A stretch of DNA of 64,000 nucleotides, from the NCBI GenBank assembly GCA_030280995.1, contig JASXTE010000013.1:13977501-14041500 (forward strand). The letters are read 5' to 3'. The notes below the pieces were generated by a model that saw nothing but the letters and a program-made list of their open reading frames with translations, was not told the DNA's origin and ran no database searches. This stretch comes from Hemileia vastatrix (taxonomy: Eukaryota; Basidiomycota; Pucciniomycetes; Pucciniales; Zaghouaniaceae). Made by a program: the position numbers and the translations under genes. Below, one piece after another: positions 1,501-49,877 of the stretch; positions within the stretch are counted from its first letter, which is position 1; the number at the start of each line of letters is the position of its first letter.

Positions 1501-2222
1501 GCAGCCAGATTTATACTGGCTGCTTTTTAGAAACCTTAATTTATGACCCAAGCCTTTGAAATTGGCTTGGGTCCCTTACATTGCAATTTAGTACTTCCAG
1601 CCAGGTTTCCCCTGGCTGGAAGTGTCTCTTTCAAGCAATCGAAGTCGCTAAAAGCGACTTCGATTGCTTGCTGTAATGTTTGCCACCCTCCCAGCTAATT
1701 TACTAGGCTGGGAGGTGGCCAAAGCAGTGTGCAACGCGCGTTGCTGCTGCAAGTAACGCGCGTTGCACAATCGCTACCATATTTCATGCAGCTGATATCA
1801 AGTCAGCTGCATGAGATATGCGCAGCATGTGCAATGCGCGCTGCATGCAGCAGAAACGCGCGTTGCATGCAATGCGCATTACTTGCAGCAGCAATGCGTG
1901 TTGCATGTGCTGCATGCAGTGCATTGCACAGCCAGTTTTTTTCTGGCTGTGCAATGCACACAGAGAAACCAAAGTCCCTGCAAGGGACTTTGGTCTCTAA
2001 AATGGAAGCGACTTTCCCTACCAGGTGCAATCTGGTGGGAAAGTGAGAGAAACGTTAGACCGAAGTTGTTTGAAAGCAACTTCGGTCTTAAAAACATTAA
2101 AAATCATAAAAAAAAAATGAGAAATGTAGAAAAAAAAAAAAATTAAAAATTAAAATGTGAGTAAAAGAAAAAAAATAAGTTCTAGTGATACCAAAAATCC
2201 AAGCTAATTTCATTTGGCTTGG
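1501..2222. repeat. Chain of about 13 consecutive GC-rich hairpins
   Basis: Neighbouring inverted repeats follow one another with little spacer: 1501-1523 (8-bp stem), 1545-1573 (10), 1593-1623 (13), 1632-1670 (18 perfect, 3-nt loop), 1682-1719 (13 with one bulge), 1728-1769 (15 perfect, TGTGCAACGCGCGTT), 1784-1814 (12), a nested imperfect set at 1817-1915, 1919-1959 (17 perfect, T7 loop), 1962-1998 (about 16 with a 2-nt bulge), 2011-2044 (13, one bulge), 2057-2088 (12) and 2199-2222 (about 6). Stems are GC-rich while loops and surroundings are AT-rich. Stem sequences differ from each other, although CAGCCAG recurs in several, so this is not a simple tandem repeat. An A-rich tract (2106-2175) lies near the end. 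Confidence 0.9.
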
Positions 2223-13787: not shown

Positions 13788-14743
13788 CTATTGCGTCCTG
13801 CACTTATCCACAATTCCGTTTTCTAAATCTGGCACTACTTCTGTCAGCATCCCCAATGGAACTGAAACTGTAGTTTCTAAACATTGCACAAATAAATTCT
13901 CAGCTGCCTTAGGAAAATAAGAGTGAACTGGGTGCTGCATTTCCTTTGCACCAGATTTTGCTCTCCCAGGTGGGTTCTTTGGAGTATTATGCCTTGCTCC
14001 TGGAATTCCTTCAGCAGGTACTGCCCTTTGCTGTACTACCTCCGGCTCCTCCATCATCAAAAGTTGTTCTTCTCCCTAATAATCAACACCATACCCACTA
14101 GGTTTCATACCGTCCATTTCAACATCTTCCATAGGCCCAGGTGTATTTTCTCTAGTATTATACTCTACTTCCTCCATATCCTCTGGATTTGCATACCTAG
14201 CACCAGCTCTTCTTGGCCTACTAATTGTTGGTGGGGCCATTATCTTGTGTTTTGCTGCAAAAATCTGCAGACACACTGCAACCTCTCCTTCTTTTACTTA
14301 AAATCCACCACTGTGCAAGTAACTGCAAAATTAACCAATTTTGCATCCTTTTCTTTCTTTTTGGCTTCGGGCTCCTTGCCCTTGCTTGACTTGCCCTCCA
14401 TAGAATTCTAATTAATATAATCAATGACCATGGCTTGCATCCCTTGATCCTTGTATTTAACAAGTTTAGTCCCATTTTCCAACATAATCAAAGTTCCATC
14501 TTTGTAAACTACCCTCTCTTCTTTATCCTTTTGAAGTGCATTACACCTCATCCTAGTATGCCCTTCTTTATTACAGTAGTAACATACCATAGTAACAAAG
14601 CACAATGGTTGGGAAGAGCTCTTGGGCCTAAAAACCTCCTTTGCTTTTTCTGCTTCAATTATTTTCTTCTCCAATTTGTCAATCCTAGCCATAACAGAAT
14701 CTGGCTGCTCTTTAGTTAAATCTTTAGCTTTAGGGGACAACAC
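13788..14743 (-). pseudogene. Gypsy A gag C-terminal part with CCHC zinc knuckle
   Basis: The segment 14743-14408 has a short coiled region and then CYYCNKEGHTRMRC, a perfect C-x2-C-x4-H-x4-C nucleocapsid knuckle. Two further frames (14276-14076 and 14060-13788) continue toward the protease, with shifts between them. The knuckle binds RNA during particle assembly in active elements. Confidence 0.8.
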
Positions 14744-22455: not shown

Positions 22456-23759
22456 ACTGAGGCCCTTTCAAAGTAGTTGTCAACCTATCATTATCTTGAT
22501 TCCTGCAACCAAGGAACCATTGACTCCAAAACCTATAGAAAATTTTTGGACAAATATTAAAAAAGGAATGTCAAAGGCATGAGACTAACTTTTTTTCTGT
22601 GACTTGAATTTGAAAATTGCCCCAAATTTATGGTTTATATAAGTGTAATTGTCCTAAATATTTGTAGTGACTATAGTGGTTATTTTTTAGGACCTGAGAA
22701 GGCAGACTACTACTAGTTCTGATGCTAGCCTTGAAATGGGACTGAATATGCTAATACAGAAGTGAGACTAACTAGACTAACTATGTTGGGGGTTCCAAAA
22801 GTGAGAAGGGCAGGACTGACTATTCTGAGCTAGAAGTGAGACTAAGAGTAACTGGATTACTTTATAAGTTGTCCAATGAGGAGTGCTCCACAGTGCTTGC
22901 CCCATATAACCCCTTAATGAAATATCCCTGCTTCTGTCTCTTACAACTGCATAGGGCCCACAGCACCTCTACAGAGCACATAGTTCTCCTCCTCCTTGCC
23001 CATAAATAAAAATCCTAAAATTATTATTTGTAGATCTCACTCTGCATATTTCATTATATAATTATATCTTTTTACTCATCACTCTGTAGTTGGTATTAAA
23101 TTACTCAAATTAGAGGGGAGGTGTTAGGTATATAATATTGTTTTCTTAGTTAACCAAGATAGAGCAACATTGTTATTGGTCCAAGAAGTAATATAATTTA
23201 ATTTATTTAATTAAAAAACTATATTATTTTAATATTTCAGTAGAAAAATTGTCTTGATAATTAAAATATTATTTTATTATTTCAGTTGAAAATTAGTCCT
23301 GGTAATTAAAATAATAATAATATATAAATTAATTATTTGATTAAAAAATTATATTAATAAATTATTTCATTTTAAATTTGGTCCTGGTAATTTAAAAATA
23401 TACAATATATAATTTAATTATTTTGTTCAGAAATTTTATAAATTATTTCAGTTGATTATTGGTCCTGATAATTAATATATTATTTTGTTTTTTCAGGTGA
23501 TTTTTTAAAAATCCTGGTAATAAATAATATCAATATCTTATTAAATTAATTAATTAAAAAACTGTATTAATTAATTATTTCAGTTTATTTTTGGTCCTGA
23601 TAATTGATATATTTTCATTAATTCAGTTGATTAGTAGTCCTGATAATTGATAATAAGCTTTAATTATTTTTTTATTTCTTATTTTTTTTAACAATAAAGA
23701 ATAATAACTAAAAAAATATTAATATTTTTTCTTCCTCTTAGCTCAAGTTATACAAAAAA
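22456..23759 (+). other. B2 untranslated leader with degenerate tandem repeat
   Basis: No coding frame is seen between the 5' LTR and the gag start. 22456-23130 has no recognisable content, except that AGAGGGGAGG followed by TGTTAGG (about 23112-23128) looks like a polypurine tract plus LTR start, possibly from an older insertion. 23234-23650 holds the repeat described separately. Confidence 0.5.
23234..23650 (+). repeat. About seven degenerate 35-80 bp units, each with TTTCAG and CCTGRTAATT
   Basis: Units begin near 23234, 23276, 23364, 23440, 23490, 23574 and 23616. The core is TATTTCAGTTGATTATTGGT followed by CCTGATAATTAA, with varying AT filler between cores. Some units read CCTGGTAATT. 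The units look like a 3' splice site followed about 16-20 nt later by a 5' splice site, but this may be chance in a TA-rich repeat. Confidence 0.7.
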
Positions 23760-28346: not shown

Positions 28347-28445
28347 ATAAATGAATTAAAAAAGCTGTGTACTATAATAAATTATACAAAGAATGCTTCG
28401 ATACAAGCATTAATTAAAACACTCCCACCAAAGTACCAGATTGCT

Positions 28446-29285
28446 TTGGAAAAAGGAACATTTTCAGTTGATGAAGGATATCTATATTACAGAAGAAAGT
28501 TGAGTAATTTTATTTTTATTTCTCCCTCTATGAAAGAAATCATCTTGAAAATTTGTCATGATGACATATTTGCAGGACATTTTGATCATGAAAAAACAAT
28601 GATTAGAATTAAGAACACTGCTTGGTGGAATAATATGTCTGAAGAAATTAAACTATATTTTGAATTCTTTGATTCTTGCGAGAAATCAAAATGATTAACT
28701 GGGAAAAGAGCTGGATTTATGAAACAAATTGAATCTCCTGATGCACCATGGCAAATTGTAAACATGGAATTTGTAACAAGACTTCCAATTTCCAGGAAAG
28801 ACAGTTATAAATCTTTCTGGGTTATTGTGGGAAGAATTACAAAAATGTGTAAATTCATCCACACTCAAAAAGATGTTTCCACTAAAGAATTAACCTTCTT
28901 GTGGTGGTCTCATATGTTTAATACTGCTGGATTCTCAAAATCCATAATCTCTGACAGAGACCCTAAATTTACTTTTGAATCTTAAATGTCTCTGATGGAT
29001 GTTTGTGGTTGTGATCTGAAGCTTTCTACTGCCAATCACTCCCAGACTGATGGATTAGCTGAAAGAATGATTCAGACTCTAGAGGACATGATAAGAAAAT
29101 ACTGTGCTTTTGGCCTTGGGTATTAAGACAATGACAGATTCACTCATGATTGGGTTACCTTACTTCCTGGGTTGAAATTTGCTTATAATAGCACAGTTCA
29201 TTCTGTTACTCAAAGAAAGCCTTTTGAGCTCTGACTTGAATATGTTCCAAATACTCCTTCCCAAATTCTCAATAATAAAATACTC
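28446..29285 (+). pseudogene. B2 integrase (first Asp replaced by Glu)
   Basis: The zinc-finger region (FAGHFDHEKTM) has lost one Cys (FFDSCEK). The core reads VNMEFVTRLP where related element D has MDF, so the first acidic residue is Glu. SDRDPKF and TDGLAERMIQ keep the second Asp and the Glu. Three in-frame stops (28691, 28983 and 29124 areas) break it. The C-terminal core FTHDWVTLLPGL is well kept. Confidence 0.9.
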
Positions 29286-29288
29286 AAA

Positions 29289-29852
29289 ATGGATTTACAT
29301 CCTGGTGTAAAATCTTTTTTTCAAATGCAACAACTTTGCAGAAAACATGCTCAAAAATATATTGAAAAATCATTTGAATATGAGAAGAAGAGATGGGACA
29401 AATCCCATAAAGAATACAATTTTAAGAAGGGTGATGAGGTGTTAATTTCTACAGTACACTTCAATTTACAAGCTAATAACAAATTGAAAGACCCATTTGT
29501 TGGTCCATTTGTTGTAAGAAGAATGTTTGGTGATAATGCAGTTGAAGTTATTTTGTATTCTCCATATGACAGAAAAAATCCTGTTTTTCCAATATCTCTT
29601 TTAAAACCTTATACATCCAATAGTAATTTGTTTCCCAAAAGGAGGGGAAGACCAAAAAAGACCCCTAATAAAATCACTGAGACAGAAGAAATTGATAAAA
29701 TTCTAAATGACAGAATAGTTACTGCTGAAAAAGGTACAGAATACTTATTGAGATTAAAGAATAAATCTTCTGAATATGATTCTTGGATACCTGGGAAGGA
29801 AATATCTAATCTTTCTACTCTGCTAAAGAAATATAAAAAGAAAAAATCATAG
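29289..29852 (+). pseudogene. B2 integrase tail: GPF/Y domain and chromodomain-like end
   Basis: A 187-residue open frame. KKGDEVLIST and KLKDPFVGPFVVRRMFGDNAVEV form the GPY/F (SH3-like) part. PVFPISLLKPY follows, then a basic AT-hook-like RRGRPKK. The end (IDKILNDRIV..YLLRLKN..YDSWIPGKEI) fits a short chromodomain, which in such elements binds modified histones and steers integration. It is the longest undamaged block of this element. Confidence 0.85.
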
Positions 29853-39209: not shown

Positions 39210-39640
39210 TGAAAATTTGACCATCCTCCACCCCTGGATTTTTTTTGAAGTAAGGGGTGGGTATCACCAAAATTCTTTCATGTCATGAATCTTGAAAGTC
39301 TTATATGAAACTTTGGCTTTACTACTCCCTGCATTTTACTGGTATCCCCAAAATTCTTACATTTCAAGAATTTCACAAGTCTTATAAGAAATTTTGGCAA
39401 AACCCCCCATGGATTTTATTGAAGTAAGGGACGGGTATCACCAAAAAAATTTCACCAAAATATTTACAAGTCAAAAAAATTCTATATCTGTTTTAAAAAA
39501 TTGGCAATACACTCCTCTGCATTTTGTTGAAGCAAGGGGTGGGTATCACCGAAATTCTTCTAAGTCATCAATTTCACATGTCAGATTTGAAAATTTGGCA
39601 ATACCCCTCCCTGAATTATATTGAAGTAAGGGGTGGAAGT
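39210..39640. repeat. About four tandem units of roughly 100 bp
   Basis: Each unit contains CATTTTATTGAAGTAAGGGG, then TGGGTATCACC, then AAATTCTT.., a GTC..AATTTCACAAGTC block and TTTGGCAATAC. Units begin near 39214, 39327, 39403, 39509 and 39606 (partial). It lies just after the Myb-like gene, inside the Harbinger element, and is noncoding. Confidence 0.8.
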
Positions 39641-39936
39641 CATCTAAATTTAATATAATTACATAAATTATTAAATAAATATCTAATATATATCAATTTC
39701 TCTAGTTTAAAGTAATGACAATTCCTCAAGCCAAAATGCAGATCAAATCTAGAAACAAAAGTTTGGGAATTTCCACAGGTATAGGCTAGAGGAACCCCAT
39801 GAAACAAACAAATGTTATTGTGATTACCTGTTATACAACCAAAGGTCATTTGCTCATCACTTTACTTGAGCAAATTGATATATAAAAAATATTTGTTAAA
39901 AATTTATGAAAAAATATAAAATTTTTGAAGACAACT

Positions 39937-41305
39937 CTAATCCCCATACTTTTTGGATCTAGATAAAGTTTTTTTTAATTGATTAACTTTACCTTCTTTC
40001 TTTACCTTGTTGATTCTTTGAATCAACTTATGACTGATTTGAAATGAGCAACCAAAATGTGTTAAATCTTGAAAGGATTCCAAACCAGGAGGAGATTTGG
40101 TTGTTTGATGATTAACCTTAGAAGAATTCCGAATAGTTTTGATGATACCATTTCCCAAACCAAAATCAATGATGCACCAGTGGTCTGGAAAATATAAACC
40201 ATGTCCTTTGATTTTAGCTGGAGATGTTATTGTTTGGCCAGTTATCGGATTGATATATGAGAATATACCAAAAGTAACAAAGTTGGCGTTATTCCTATTG
40301 ATATGAATCCTAATGTGGAATCCAGAATGATTGATAATGACATTAGAAAATAAAAGATATTTTTGTCTGATATCTTCCCATTTGGAGTCACACCAATTTG
40401 GTATTCCAACTTTGGTTGCAAGTTCATGATTTTTTTCAAATGATTTATTACAGAGCTTTTTGAGTCAAAGAGCAAGAAAAGAGTTAAAGGAAGGTAGAGT
40501 TTCCCATAAGCAAAAATCTTCATCTTTTTGAGCTTTAGTGATATTCTTGACCAACAAATATATGCCTATATAAATGAAATAAGTGAAATGATTTTAAGAA
40601 TGGAAAAAAATTATTAGATATTCCAAGAGAATATCCTTTAACAAAACCTGGTCTCCAACCAAATCCAATCATGATACCACCCAAAAAATTTGTATTCCTT
40701 ATAGGTAATCAAGCCAAAGCCATTTGATAAAGAGTTATGATAAGATCCAATAGTTGATTAAAAGATTCATCTTTTACACCATCAAATGAATGAACTTTCA
40801 AAATGATTTGAACCTTATAAGTATTACTGATAACTGCAACAACTTGATCATCACCAAATTCGCTTAGATATTTGATATCTTCTGGTAATTTTTTCAGATA
40901 TTCATTTTTTTATCTACTTTAGTTTTATGAAAAAAAATGTTTCGGATATGAAGAAAATAACTTTCACAGAGAATTTTTTTTTCAGATATCTTTTCTTCTG
41001 ATAAAACTGATTATATTTAATTTTTTTTGATGATTTAGATGAGGAATTTTTTTTTCAGATATCTTTTCTTCTGATGAGACTGATTATGTTTATTTTTTTT
41101 GGATGATATAGAAGAAGAATTTTTTTTTTCAGATATCTTTTATTCTGATCAGACTGATTATAGATAATTTTTTTGATGATTCAGAAGATGATTGTATGGA
41201 AGTTGATTTTGAAGAAGATGATAGAGATGATTAAGATGAAAATGATAAAGAGGATAAAGATGAAGATGATAGAGAAGTAAGGGGTAAATCTGAAGAAGAA
41301 GACAT
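39937..41305 (-). pseudogene. Unrecognised third gene inside the Harbinger element
   Basis: I do not recognise the family. On the minus strand an ATG at 41305 starts a Ser-rich, acidic segment (MSSSSDLPLTSLSSSS..). It is followed by charged repeats and then by a globular part with few interruptions. 40925-40575 reads KKLPEDIKYLSEFGDDQVVA.. to GFGWRPGFVKGYSLGIS with one TGA. 40570-39937 reads in a second frame ..VGIPNWCDSKWEDIRQKY.., INPITGQTITSPAKIKGHG, FPDHWCIIDFGLGNGI, LTHFGCSFQISHK and a basic end, with one TGA. The frame change near 40570 is an intron or an indel. The globular part totals about 310 residues. It is unlike Myb, transposase or retroelement proteins known to me. It may be a captured gene or an element-borne accessory gene. 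Confidence 0.6.
40971..41195 (-). repeat. Three 73-bp tandem units
   Basis: Each unit holds GAATTTTTTTTTCAGATATC, TTTTCTTCTGAT, AGACTGATTAT and GATGAT..AGAAGA. Units start near 40971, 41044 and 41118. It falls within the N-terminal part of the third Harbinger gene, where it would encode repeated charged segments, though stops are now present. On the plus strand each unit contains TTTCAG. Confidence 0.8.
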
Positions 41306-41771: not shown

Positions 41772-42660
41772 GGTGCCCCTCTTTAACTCCCATTACAGTC
41801 CCCTTTCCCCCCTTTCTTTCTCTGAAATCACCTCTAAATTCCCTCCCTCCTTACCTCAAAACCACCCTCAAATCCCCTCATTGCCTGTCTCAAAATCCCC
41901 CTGAAACACCCTCCATAATTGCCACAAAACCCCCTAAACTCCCCCCCTTAGTTACCTTAAAACACTTCTTTTACCCCTCTTTATATGCCCCAAACCCCCC
42001 TCCTTTCCCCCCCTCTTTAGCCACTTTAAACCCCCCCATTTAGGTCCCATCCCCCCCCTCACACTCCCCTTAAGCCTTCTCTAGCCCCTCCTCCTCAACA
42101 AACAATTGCTAACAATTGTTTGTTAAGTAAATGAATCATTAGCGATTCGTTTACTTAGCAAACAATTGCTAGAGATTGTTTTTTAAGTAATCAAATCAGT
42201 AGCAATTGTTTACTTAACAAATGATCATTAGCCATTGTTTGTTAAGAAGGAGGTGGGGTAGAGGTGGCTAAAGGGAAGTGGAAGGGGGGAAGGGGGGTTT
42301 TGAGATGGGTAAAGAGAGGAGAAGGGGGGAGAGCTGAGGTGCCTAAAGAGAGGGTAAGGGGGGGTGATGAGGCGCCTAAAGAGAGGGGAAGGGTGGGTCT
42401 TGAGGCACCTAAAGAGGGGAGAAAAGGGGATTCGGTACAGGCAAGGAGGGTGAAATAAGGGGGTCTTGAGGAAGGTAAAGAGAGAGGAAAAAGGGTGAAG
42501 GAGAGAAAAAAAAAGAAAAAAAGAGAAAAAAGAGAAAAAAAAGTTAGTCTAACCGTGAAAATAAAAAAAAAGGACTTACAAAAAAAAAAACAAAAAAAAA
42601 ACAAAAAAAAAAAAAAAAAAAACAAAAAAAAAAAAAAAAAAAGCAAAATAAAAAAATTCA
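41772..42660. repeat. Foldback: C-rich arm, five hairpins, G-rich arm, A-rich tail
   Basis: The left arm (41772-42090) is C-rich on the plus strand, with repeated CCCCTCTTTAGCCAC..AAACCCCCC phrases. The right arm (42247-42480) is G-rich and, reverse complemented, shows related phrases (CTCTCTTTAGGCACCTCA..CCCCCC). The arms are therefore inverted, degenerate minisatellites. Between them are five successive hairpins: 42097-42124 (12-bp perfect stem AACAAACAATTG), 42125-42156 (13 with one wobble), about 42158-42181, about 42185-42217 and about 42216-42245. Two stem types alternate (AACAAA.. and AAGTAA..). An A-rich tract follows (42480-42660). Long frames read through the arms are low-complexity artefacts. 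Confidence 0.85.
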
Positions 42661-47013: not shown

Positions 47014-49367
47014 TGTCTGTTTATCTAGTATATAAGTGTCAGCCTAAATATCCTTAGGACTGAGTATTTCTTATGCTTAAAATAAGATAACCTTAACTAG
47101 ATTAAGCTTATATCTTAAAAATAAGGTTAAAATAATAATATATATTATTTTATGATATATATATATAATTATTATTCTATTATATAATTTATAATAGTTT
47201 AAATAGCTTATCCATGGCCTAATAATACTTATTAAGGTGTTAATGGAGTCAAAATATACTTATCTTAAGTGATATGAAGTAATTATTGACATACATAAGC
47301 TTATATGTATACATAAATCTCATATTCAGTGAAATATGCAGTATATTATGTATATTTAAGTATATAAGTGGGTTTTAGCCCCTTAATAGCCTATAACCTT
47401 TGTTTTTCTGCTTATTTTAGGTCATATGGACGAAATCAGTGGACTCACAATGCCTACAGAAGCATAGACACCTATATCAGGCGCATACACCCAGTTTGGA
47501 CAACTAAAATTACTTCCTTGGATGGTTATTCACGGATTTATGGGTTGGAAATATGTTTTTGGGTTAATGTGGATGCTTGGGGATGTTATTGGGGGCTTGG
47601 ACATTTTATTTGTTTCCTTTATATGCTTTTAGTTTCATTAAATCTCTTTTTGATCTTTTATTTTACCTGTTTCTTTATGGTATCCGCTTTTATCTGGGAT
47701 TTCTATTTATGGTATGACTCTGTGTTATTATTAATAGTGATGGAGGGTCCTTACTGGAGGTCTGGGTGTTGAAACTGCTTGAAGTGGACGCCATGGGGAG
47801 GTGATGGGCCCTCACAGTGCTGTAATTGCCGGGGATAGCAGTGACATCATCTGGATTGAAGGTCTGTGCACTCCAGTGGATTTGGGTATAAGTAAGGAGG
47901 GATTTTGACGGTTTATTATCATCATTCAATTACTACACTTCAAATAAACATTACACTACAATTATTAACATTCAGAAATATATTATAAAGCCCTTATAAA
48001 TTGATATTATCTTTATAATAGCTATAACTATATTTTATTCTTCTATTTTCCACCACTAGCACGCGTTTAAATCCAAGTATTGTGAGTTTTATTTGAGTAT
48101 AACTATTCTATTAGTCTTCCCCTGAGGTTTAATCACTAAATCATTTATTAATAAGTAGTAGGACCATAAAATAACACTATTATATCATACTTATATACTA
48201 GACTGTACTGACAATAAGTATGATTTAATAGTATTTATTAATGGTCCTACTACTTATTGATAAATGATTTAGTGATTAAACCTCAGGGGAAGACTAATAA
48301 AATAATAATACTCAAATAAAACTCACAATACTTGGATTTAAATGCGTGCTAGTGGTGGAAAATGGATAAATAAAATATATTTATAGCTTATATAATGATA
48401 ATATCAATTTATAAAGGCTTTATAATATATTTCTAAATGATAATAATTGTGTTTAAATGTTTAATTGAATTTTAGTAAGAAAATGATTATCAATAACCCG
48501 TCAAATCCCTCCTTACTTATACCAAAATCCACAGGAGTGCACAGACCTTCAATCCAGATAATGTCACTGCTATCCCTGGAAATTACAGCACTGTGAGGGC
48601 CCATAACCTCCCAATGGCGTTCACTTCAAGAAGATTCAACACCCAGATCTCCAGTAAGGACCCTCCATCACAATTAATGATAACACAGACCCATACCATA
48701 AATAGAAAATCCAGATAAAAGCGGATACCATAAAGAAACAAGTAAAATAACTAATACAAAAGGAATAAAATGAAACCCAAAGCATATAAAGGAAACAAAT
48801 TAAATGTCCAAGCCCCCAATAACATCCCCAAGCATACATATTAACCCATCAATGACCTCCCAACCCAAAAATCGGTGAATATCCATCCAAGGAAACAGAT
48901 TAAGTTGTCCAAGCTGAGTACATGCACCTGAAATAGATGTATATGCTTCTGTAGGTGTTGTGAATCCACTGAATACGTCCATATGACCTAAAATAAGCAG
49001 AAAAAAAGGTCATAGGCTGTTAAGAGGCTAAAACACACTTATAGACCTAAATATACATAATATACTACATATTTCACTGAATATGAGATTTATGTATACA
49101 TATAAGCGTATGTATGTCAATAATTACTTAATATCACTTAAGATAAGTATATTATGACTCCATTAACACCTTTAAAGTATTATTAGGCTATGAATAAGCT
49201 ATTTAAACAACTGTAAGTTATATAATAGTGTAATAATTATATATATATATAATATAATATATATATTATTATTTTAACCTTATTTTTAAGATATAAGCTT
49301 AATTTACTTAAGGTTATCTTATTTTAAGCATAATAAATACTCAGTCCTAAGAATATCTAGGCTGAAA
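47014..49367 (-). repeat. Outer LTR of family C/D, minus orientation, split by another LTR
   Basis: On the plus strand its end TGTCTGTTTATCTAGTAT lies at 47014-47036 and the rest at 48214-49367. This corresponds to the reverse complement of the LTR end seen at 63690-63721. The inner LTR 47037-48213 is inserted 23 bp from this end. It ends at 49367 with GGCTGA. Confidence 0.85.
47037..48213 (+). repeat. Inner solo LTR of family C/D with perfect target duplication
   Basis: It starts TGTCAGCCTAAATATCC and ends GTACTGACA (1177 bp). It is flanked by ATAAG on both sides (47032-47036 and 48214-48218). Because it lies inside an LTR of its own family in opposite orientation, the two form inverted arms of about 1.15 kb. 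It carries an aromatic-rich open frame (47368-47772). Confidence 0.92.
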
Positions 49368-49430: not shown

Positions 49431-49877
49431 TACATGCACCTGAAATAGATGTATATGCTTCTGTAGGTGTTGTGAATCCACTGAATACGTCCATATGACC
49501 TAAAATAAGCAGAAAAAAAGGTCATAGGCTTTTAAGAGGCTAAAACACACTTATAGACCTAAATATACATAATATACTACATATTTCACTGAATATGAGA
49601 TTTATGTATACATATAAGCGTATGTATGTCAATAATTACTTAATATCACTTAAGATAAGTATATTATGACTCCATTAACACCTTTAAAGTATTATTAGGC
49701 TATGAATAAGCTATTTAAACAACTGTAAGTTATATAATAGTGTAATAATTATATATATATGTATTATACACATACATATGAGTGTTTTAACCTTATTTTT
49801 AAGAGATAAGCTTAATGTATTTAAGGTTATATTATTTTAAAAATAAGAATCATTCATTCCTGGAGATACCTAGGCTG
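49431..49877 (-). repeat. Partial LTR of family C/D, mosaic duplicate
   Basis: 49431 to about 49757 repeats 48919-49245 with a single base difference over roughly 330 bp. Beyond the (AT)n tract the sequence diverges strongly and instead resembles the LTR start of element D (62548). The start at 49431 is abrupt, so the copy is truncated. Confidence 0.85.

Follow-up and report, generated by a model that had tools for sequence, protein, structure and literature searches.

The question raised by the locus analysed here is how thirteen adjoining hairpins, whose stems differ in sequence, have come to lie in a row and to stay paired. The hairpins follow one another back to back in positions 1501-2088, about 590 bases of the window (the whole stretch of DNA that was analysed, 64,000 nucleotides in length), and a 14th, isolated one lies at 2199-2222, so that the coordinates and the number that the initial annotation had given, about 13 hairpins in 1501-2222, were about right. 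The GC content is 49% in the chain, as compared with the window average of 30%. The gaps between the 13 chain hairpins are 0-21 bp, with the hairpins taking up most of 1501-2088, and because the gaps are so short there are few places within this interval for overlooked decayed copies.

The chain is real and lies far beyond chance. The annotation had named folding against shuffled sequence as the test of its claim, and in this test the MFE of 1490-2230 is -383.5 kcal/mol as compared with -203.6 +/- 5.3 kcal/mol for 20 dinucleotide shuffles (z -34), with 0 of the 20 shuffles being as low. In a local fold, where the pair span was at most 80 and the reference was one mononucleotide shuffle per segment, 1441-2160 is the most extreme of 264 overlapping 720-nt segments, having -197.5 relative to shuffle, while the median is -8.6 and the best segment clear of the chain has -51.7. 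The claimed chain is also borne out by two hairpin scans over the 64 kb. An ungapped scan with minimum values of 9 for the stem score and 35% for the arm GC gives 13 hairpins, 9 of which are inside 1545-2088, and a composition-corrected scan gives 14, again with 9 inside 1545-2088, as compared with 1, 0 and 0 hairpins when the latter scan is applied to three block shuffles of the window. Upstream, in 600-1500, there are 4 eroded hairpins against 3.45 expected, and thus the chain is not measurably continued in that direction.

It is noted that the hairpins are not unrelated to one another, as had been thought. Ten of the 14 can be placed in two families, A (H01, H03, H05, H10 and H12) and B (H02, H04, H11, H13 and H14), three GC-rich palindromes make up a third family, C (H06, which is C1, C2 and C3), and H07 belongs to none of them. 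Along the chain, H01 (family A, core CAGCCAG/CTGGCTG; 1501-1523) has a stem of 8 bp and a loop of 7, H02 (family B, GACCCAAGCC; 1545-1573) has 10 perfect bp and a loop of 9, H03 (family A; 1592-1624) has 13 perfect bp with an end wobble and a loop of 5, and H04 (family B; 1632-1670) has 18 perfect bp and a loop of 3. H05 (1682-1720), with about 14 bp and a 1-nt bulge, is assigned to family A as a weak member. Then comes the C block, in which C1 (family C, TGCAACGCGCGTT; 1728-1769) has 18 bp with one G.T, and C2 (1830-1867), which is inverted relative to C1 (1730-1769 and 1828-1867 being 88% complementary), has 13 pairs including one T.G and one C.A, with a further mispair adjoining the loop beyond these 13 pairs. 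The unclassified H07 (1777-1820; 18 bp, one T.G) lies between C1 and C2, and C3 (1868-1905), having two G.U pairs, is a 38-bp tandem copy of C2. After the block, H10 (1919-1959) has the family A core within an outer stem of C-like sequence, with 17 perfect bp and a loop of 7, followed by H11 (family B; 1962-1998) with 16 bp, a 2-nt bulge and a loop of 3, H12 (assigned to family A; 2011-2044) with about 15 bp, of which one is a wobble, and a 1-nt bulge, and H13 (family B; 2057-2088) with 14-15 bp and one T.G. An A-rich spacer of about 110 bp (2089-2198) separates H13 from the outlying H14 (family B; 2199-2222), which is like H02 in stem and loop and has the opposite orientation and a short core stem, with a longer imperfect stem spanning 2193-2228. 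In 2089-2230 the GC content is 18% and CpG is absent.

The relatedness is seen in two tests. When all hairpin pairs are compared, with C2 and C3 entered as one piece (1842-1918), 15 of 78 pairs exceed arm-shuffled hairpins in similarity at p<0.05 (the resolution of p being 1/201), where about 4 are expected. For the ten hairpins that remain when H06, H07, C2 and C3 are set aside, 12 of 45 pairs have a score of at least 10, as compared with a null mean of 0.9 and a null maximum of 6 in 400 sets. The division into A and B ranks first among all 126 equal splits of the ten hairpins; the labels were picked after the pairwise test, but the ranking nevertheless covers every equal split. The order of the labels is A B A B A, the C block, A B A B and then B, with A and B hairpins adjoining, and their alternation alone is not significant (8 runs, p 0.17).

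Moreover, the hairpins are evenly spaced. The centres of the 13 hairpins are 46.7 +/- 4.2 bp apart despite the hairpin lengths of 23-44 bp, giving p 0.001 in a broken-stick null (mean deviation of 10.6 for a random gap distribution) and p 0.005 in a gap permutation. The even spacing and the families, that is, regular units that are homologous to one another, therefore point to a tandem array of units of about 47 bp, and the exclusion of tandem duplication in the initial annotation is not supported, since such a pattern is that of an old tandem array. Similarity between the spacers is not evident by eye, and of the interval 1501-2088 Tandem Repeats Finder picks out only 1830-1907. As a remark only, the centre of H14 is 138 bp past that of H13, which is close to three units and agrees with two lost hairpins.

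We now consider how the stems have changed, the evidence for which comes from paralogous hairpins within one locus. In family B (four of the five members aligned, the too short H14 being omitted), 7 of 14 pairs are changed on both sides, and pairing is 91% as compared with 79% in shuffles; the covariation score is reached by 0 of 500 shuffles, a count of this kind not being a probability. The members differ at 34% of the stem sites, while only 2 of 44 cells in the 11 outer pairs are non-Watson-Crick. In 66 pairwise comparisons of these 11 pairs, which are not independent of one another, there are 21 two-sided and 3 one-sided differences, where independent arms of equal divergence would give 7.7 and 29.7, respectively, and where the choice of hairpins by their pairing brings a bias toward two-sided differences. 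Transversions number 7 among the two-sided differences and 0 among the one-sided ones. Of the seven pairs with two-sided changes, at least two (CCGAAG to CCAAAG; TCG to TTG) show a CpG transition in each arm and carry less weight, because a genome that is losing CpG could yield both changes by chance. For family A (three of the five members aligned), the core is invariant, one pair varies in three ways (G-C, C-G and A-T), and the covariation is not significant, with 81 of 500 shuffles as high. In family C (all three members), which has one two-sided change and several non-pairing cells, the covariation is not significant either, 169 of 500 shuffles being as high. The initial view that the pairing is not random thus stands for the chain as such, and it is supported that pairing was kept or remade while family B diverged, but this does not extend to families A and C.

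The mispairs are of a restricted kind. In the ten of the 14 stems that are ungapped, Watson-Crick pairs make up 136 of the 143, and the remaining seven are G.T (6) or C.A (1); the count leaves out the three stems with a bulge of 1-2 nt (H05, H11 and H12) and H14. The number of transversion mispairs among these pairs is zero, a value that depends on the chosen stem limits: in C2, a T-with-C mispair, in reversed orientation, lies one pair past the stem limit and is followed by one good pair. Drift of the arms is disfavoured because drift should leave transversion mispairs, and there is none among the 143 pairs.

Based on these data, the reading that we prefer, with a probability of about one half, is that template switching has acted on an old, decayed tandem array of hairpin-centred units of about 47 bp. 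Under this proposal, an array of such units, each with a hairpin at its centre, would have arisen in nuclear DNA, and the copies A, B and C would then have diverged, with most of them retaining their own pairing. If replication came to a halt within a hairpin, the newly made strand could fold back and copy the opposite arm, as in quasi-palindrome correction or template switching. A substitution in one arm would thereby be passed to the other arm, and with the mirroring of neighbouring sequence the stems would be lengthened. Two shared words may be traces of this mirroring: the outer stem of H10 has the C-block word TGTGCAATGC, present at 1828 and 1948, with its reverse complement at 1921, the C block being the left neighbour of H10, and the left flank of H12 has the B-arm part AAGCGACTT, present at 1652 and 2006. 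Arm copying is favoured because it would produce two-sided differences in single events and would draw outer stems from neighbouring sequence. The two-sided excess expected of template-switch products is present in family B and not significant in families A and C. In yeast, template switching has been documented to homogenise arms (PMC8604942, PMC3820800), and for RNA stems it has been proposed to do so (PMC8794818). The G-C/U-A excess that is predicted for intrastrand switching (PMC8794818), a bias and no strict requirement, is absent here; the orientations in the ten ungapped stems are GC 35, CG 40, AT 34 and TA 27. It should also be noted that a template-switch array would not require a cellular function.

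By contrast, it could be proposed that the chain is transcribed into a structured RNA, either a multi-hairpin noncoding RNA or a small-RNA precursor, with the stems kept by selection. The pairing, which is the sole positive evidence, makes such an RNA or small-RNA source possible, while we consider it unlikely as the explanation of the chain. The two-sided changes in family B would be expected from it, and so would the mispairs of the ten ungapped stems, which on the + strand are 6 G.U and 1 C.A, but this 6-to-1 excess is not significant (two-sided binomial 0.125). Similarly, the + strand has an MFE of -336.4 with 13 G.U and the - strand one of -325.9 with 7, but relative to shuffles the two strands are alike (z -20.8 and -22.6), so the strand preference is weak as evidence for an RNA. 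The loop lengths differ between hairpins, and the stems, at 8-18 bp, are on the short side for Dicer. In a rust fungus, small-RNA loci have been described at stem-loops and at long inverted repeats (PMC4578785). No Rfam family matches the window at its gathering score; the 19 weak Rfam matches in 1-2400 (E up to 1), each having at most about half its gathering score, were dismissed as evidence of a known RNA gene, and no tRNA or tmRNA gene was found. Coding was also considered, and the open frames 1699-2046 and 1796-2146 appear to be by-products of the repeats.

A somewhat less probable proposal is that the chain is a young palindromic satellite, in which hairpin units were recently duplicated from an already diverse set without any maintenance. 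The chain has a CpG o/e of 0.66 as compared with 0.13 in 17-64 kb, a difference that young DNA would show in a genome that depletes CpG, but the value is also raised, to 0.46, in the neighbouring 1-1500, while ranging from 0.13 to 0.19 in 8-64 kb. The raised CpG in 1-2088 may thus be the sign of a non-transposon stretch and not of a young age. The proposal is also in line with a second hairpin tandem at 42097-42243, where five AT-rich hairpins lie about 30 bp apart, between a C-rich flank on the left and a G-rich one on the right. One of them is perfect and four have wobbles or mispairs, with 3 mispairs in 55 pairs being neither G.T nor C.A, and in contrast to the chain it has the look of an ordinary palindromic tandem in decay. 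What argues against recent duplication is the rarity of non-Watson-Crick cells in family B in spite of its divergence, which implies that the pairing was kept during divergence or originated repeatedly and independently.

Less probable still is that the chain is mobile, either as a hairpin element or as a foldback transposon array, similar to double-hairpin elements, for although two hairpin types adjoin in it, and retrotransposon fragments and a foldback with 792-nt arms (47403-49005) are present in the window, no family has a clear copy elsewhere in the window and neither a target-site duplication nor a terminal repeat was recognised by eye. Scans of the window outside the chain, allowing at most 2 mismatches (A and B) or 3 (C), give no clear copies, the look-alikes being 1036-1056 and 14686-14707 for A, 28427-28450 and 40392-40416 for B, and none for C. 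In blastn of the chain against 2401-64000, the best 12 rows consist of matches in the A-rich spacer, apart from one of 13 nt that is at chance level. In plasmid records there is no match to the chain, and in viral contigs there is none for one B hairpin, the sole query, neither plasmids nor viruses being a likely home.

The mitochondrial location that characterises double-hairpin elements is not found here: the window has retrotransposon protein fragments (aspartyl protease, integrase, RNase H and chromodomain), which presumably resemble proteins of myrtle rust, and from these fragments in its flanks we infer that the chain is nuclear. A fragment of a TET-like 2OG-Fe(II) oxygenase (PF20515, E 4.5e-16) is present at 39937-40464 on the - strand. 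The low GC, the CpG depletion and the abundant Gypsy-type elements agree with the description of the genome of Austropuccinia psidii (myrtle rust) in outline (PMC8063080), and the host is probably a rust-like fungus with a CpG-depleted genome. For one integrase pair (A1), there are 0 confirmed relatives among 132 pattern matches in bacterial and archaeal genome contigs. A fungal-type retrotransposon protein at 29235-29849 has an 82% relative (P0001; 1 of 9 protein matches) on a 977-bp contig binned in an 'uncultured Paraburkholderia' genome, which is probably fungal contamination. The foldback at 47403-49005 has arms that are 88% complementary with 19 nt between them, and related copies are near 55.3 and 62.9 kb; 48919-49218 and 49431-49730 form a direct repeat of at least 300 nt, 100% identical and 512 bp apart.

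Other repeats are present in the window as well. Positions 1-350 have three copies of the 26-nt CCTGTATGCNTTCAGCAAGTACGAGA, for which bacterial and archaeal genome contigs gave no match; two copies lie at the tips of imperfect hairpins that are long and AT-rich (184-270 and 284-382), with arms that differ from each other while the tip is conserved. At 39215-39648 there are four diverged copies of a unit of about 58 nt, at least one of which forms a CCACCCCT/AGGGGTGG hairpin, and at 23198-23652 there are AT-rich repeats with a common TTTCAGTTGA...GGTCCTGATAATT motif (six copies, family D19), where the fold is no better than shuffles (z +1.0).

Several known systems are similar to the chain in part. 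Tandem satellites with palindromic monomers have regular spacing and related units, which the chain shares together with its internal 38-bp tandem, while in the chain the monomers have diverged so far that only 1830-1907 is detected as a tandem, and the pairing persists. Quasi-palindrome correction likewise makes the two arms of a short inverted repeat alike, can yield stems that pair perfectly and changes both sides in a single event, but the accounts of it (PMC8604942, PMC3820800, PMC8794818) are centred on single inverted repeats or stems, whereas the chain is a regular row of 13. The mitochondrial double-hairpin and repetitive hairpin-forming elements, as summarised in PMC2800124 and PMC7218506, are likewise short, GC- or AT-rich, repeated intergenic hairpins that also occur in fungi; they are spread over many intergenic regions, whereas the chain is one regular array in which at least one family has stems that diverge in register. 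The inverted-repeat and microRNA-like loci outlined in PMC4578785 also form hairpins, in a fungus of the rust group, to which the host of the chain may belong; there, small RNAs have been mapped to the stem-loops or long inverted repeats. In the titles and abstract openings of the literature searched, no nuclear hairpin chain of this kind is described, its existence elsewhere still being possible, and in the main text of PMC12774611 the terms 'hairpin', 'inverted repeat', 'satellite' and 'palindrom' do not occur.

Finally, we tentatively suggest, with a good deal of doubt, that the chain might belong to a class of nuclear hairpin chains, namely phased arrays in which the hairpins are kept while the sequence turns over in register, either as a self-perpetuating product of arm copying or as a selected multi-hairpin RNA, and which might be repeated elsewhere in the genome, as in the AT-rich chain at 42097-42243. 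If this is true, one short locus would be a natural record of stems that stay paired while changing, which bears on the question of whether compensatory change arises from selection or from the copying of one arm onto the other. With 13 adjoining hairpins, their diverged relatives and the loss of CpG as a possible clock, the question may be tested by comparing strains or haplotypes.
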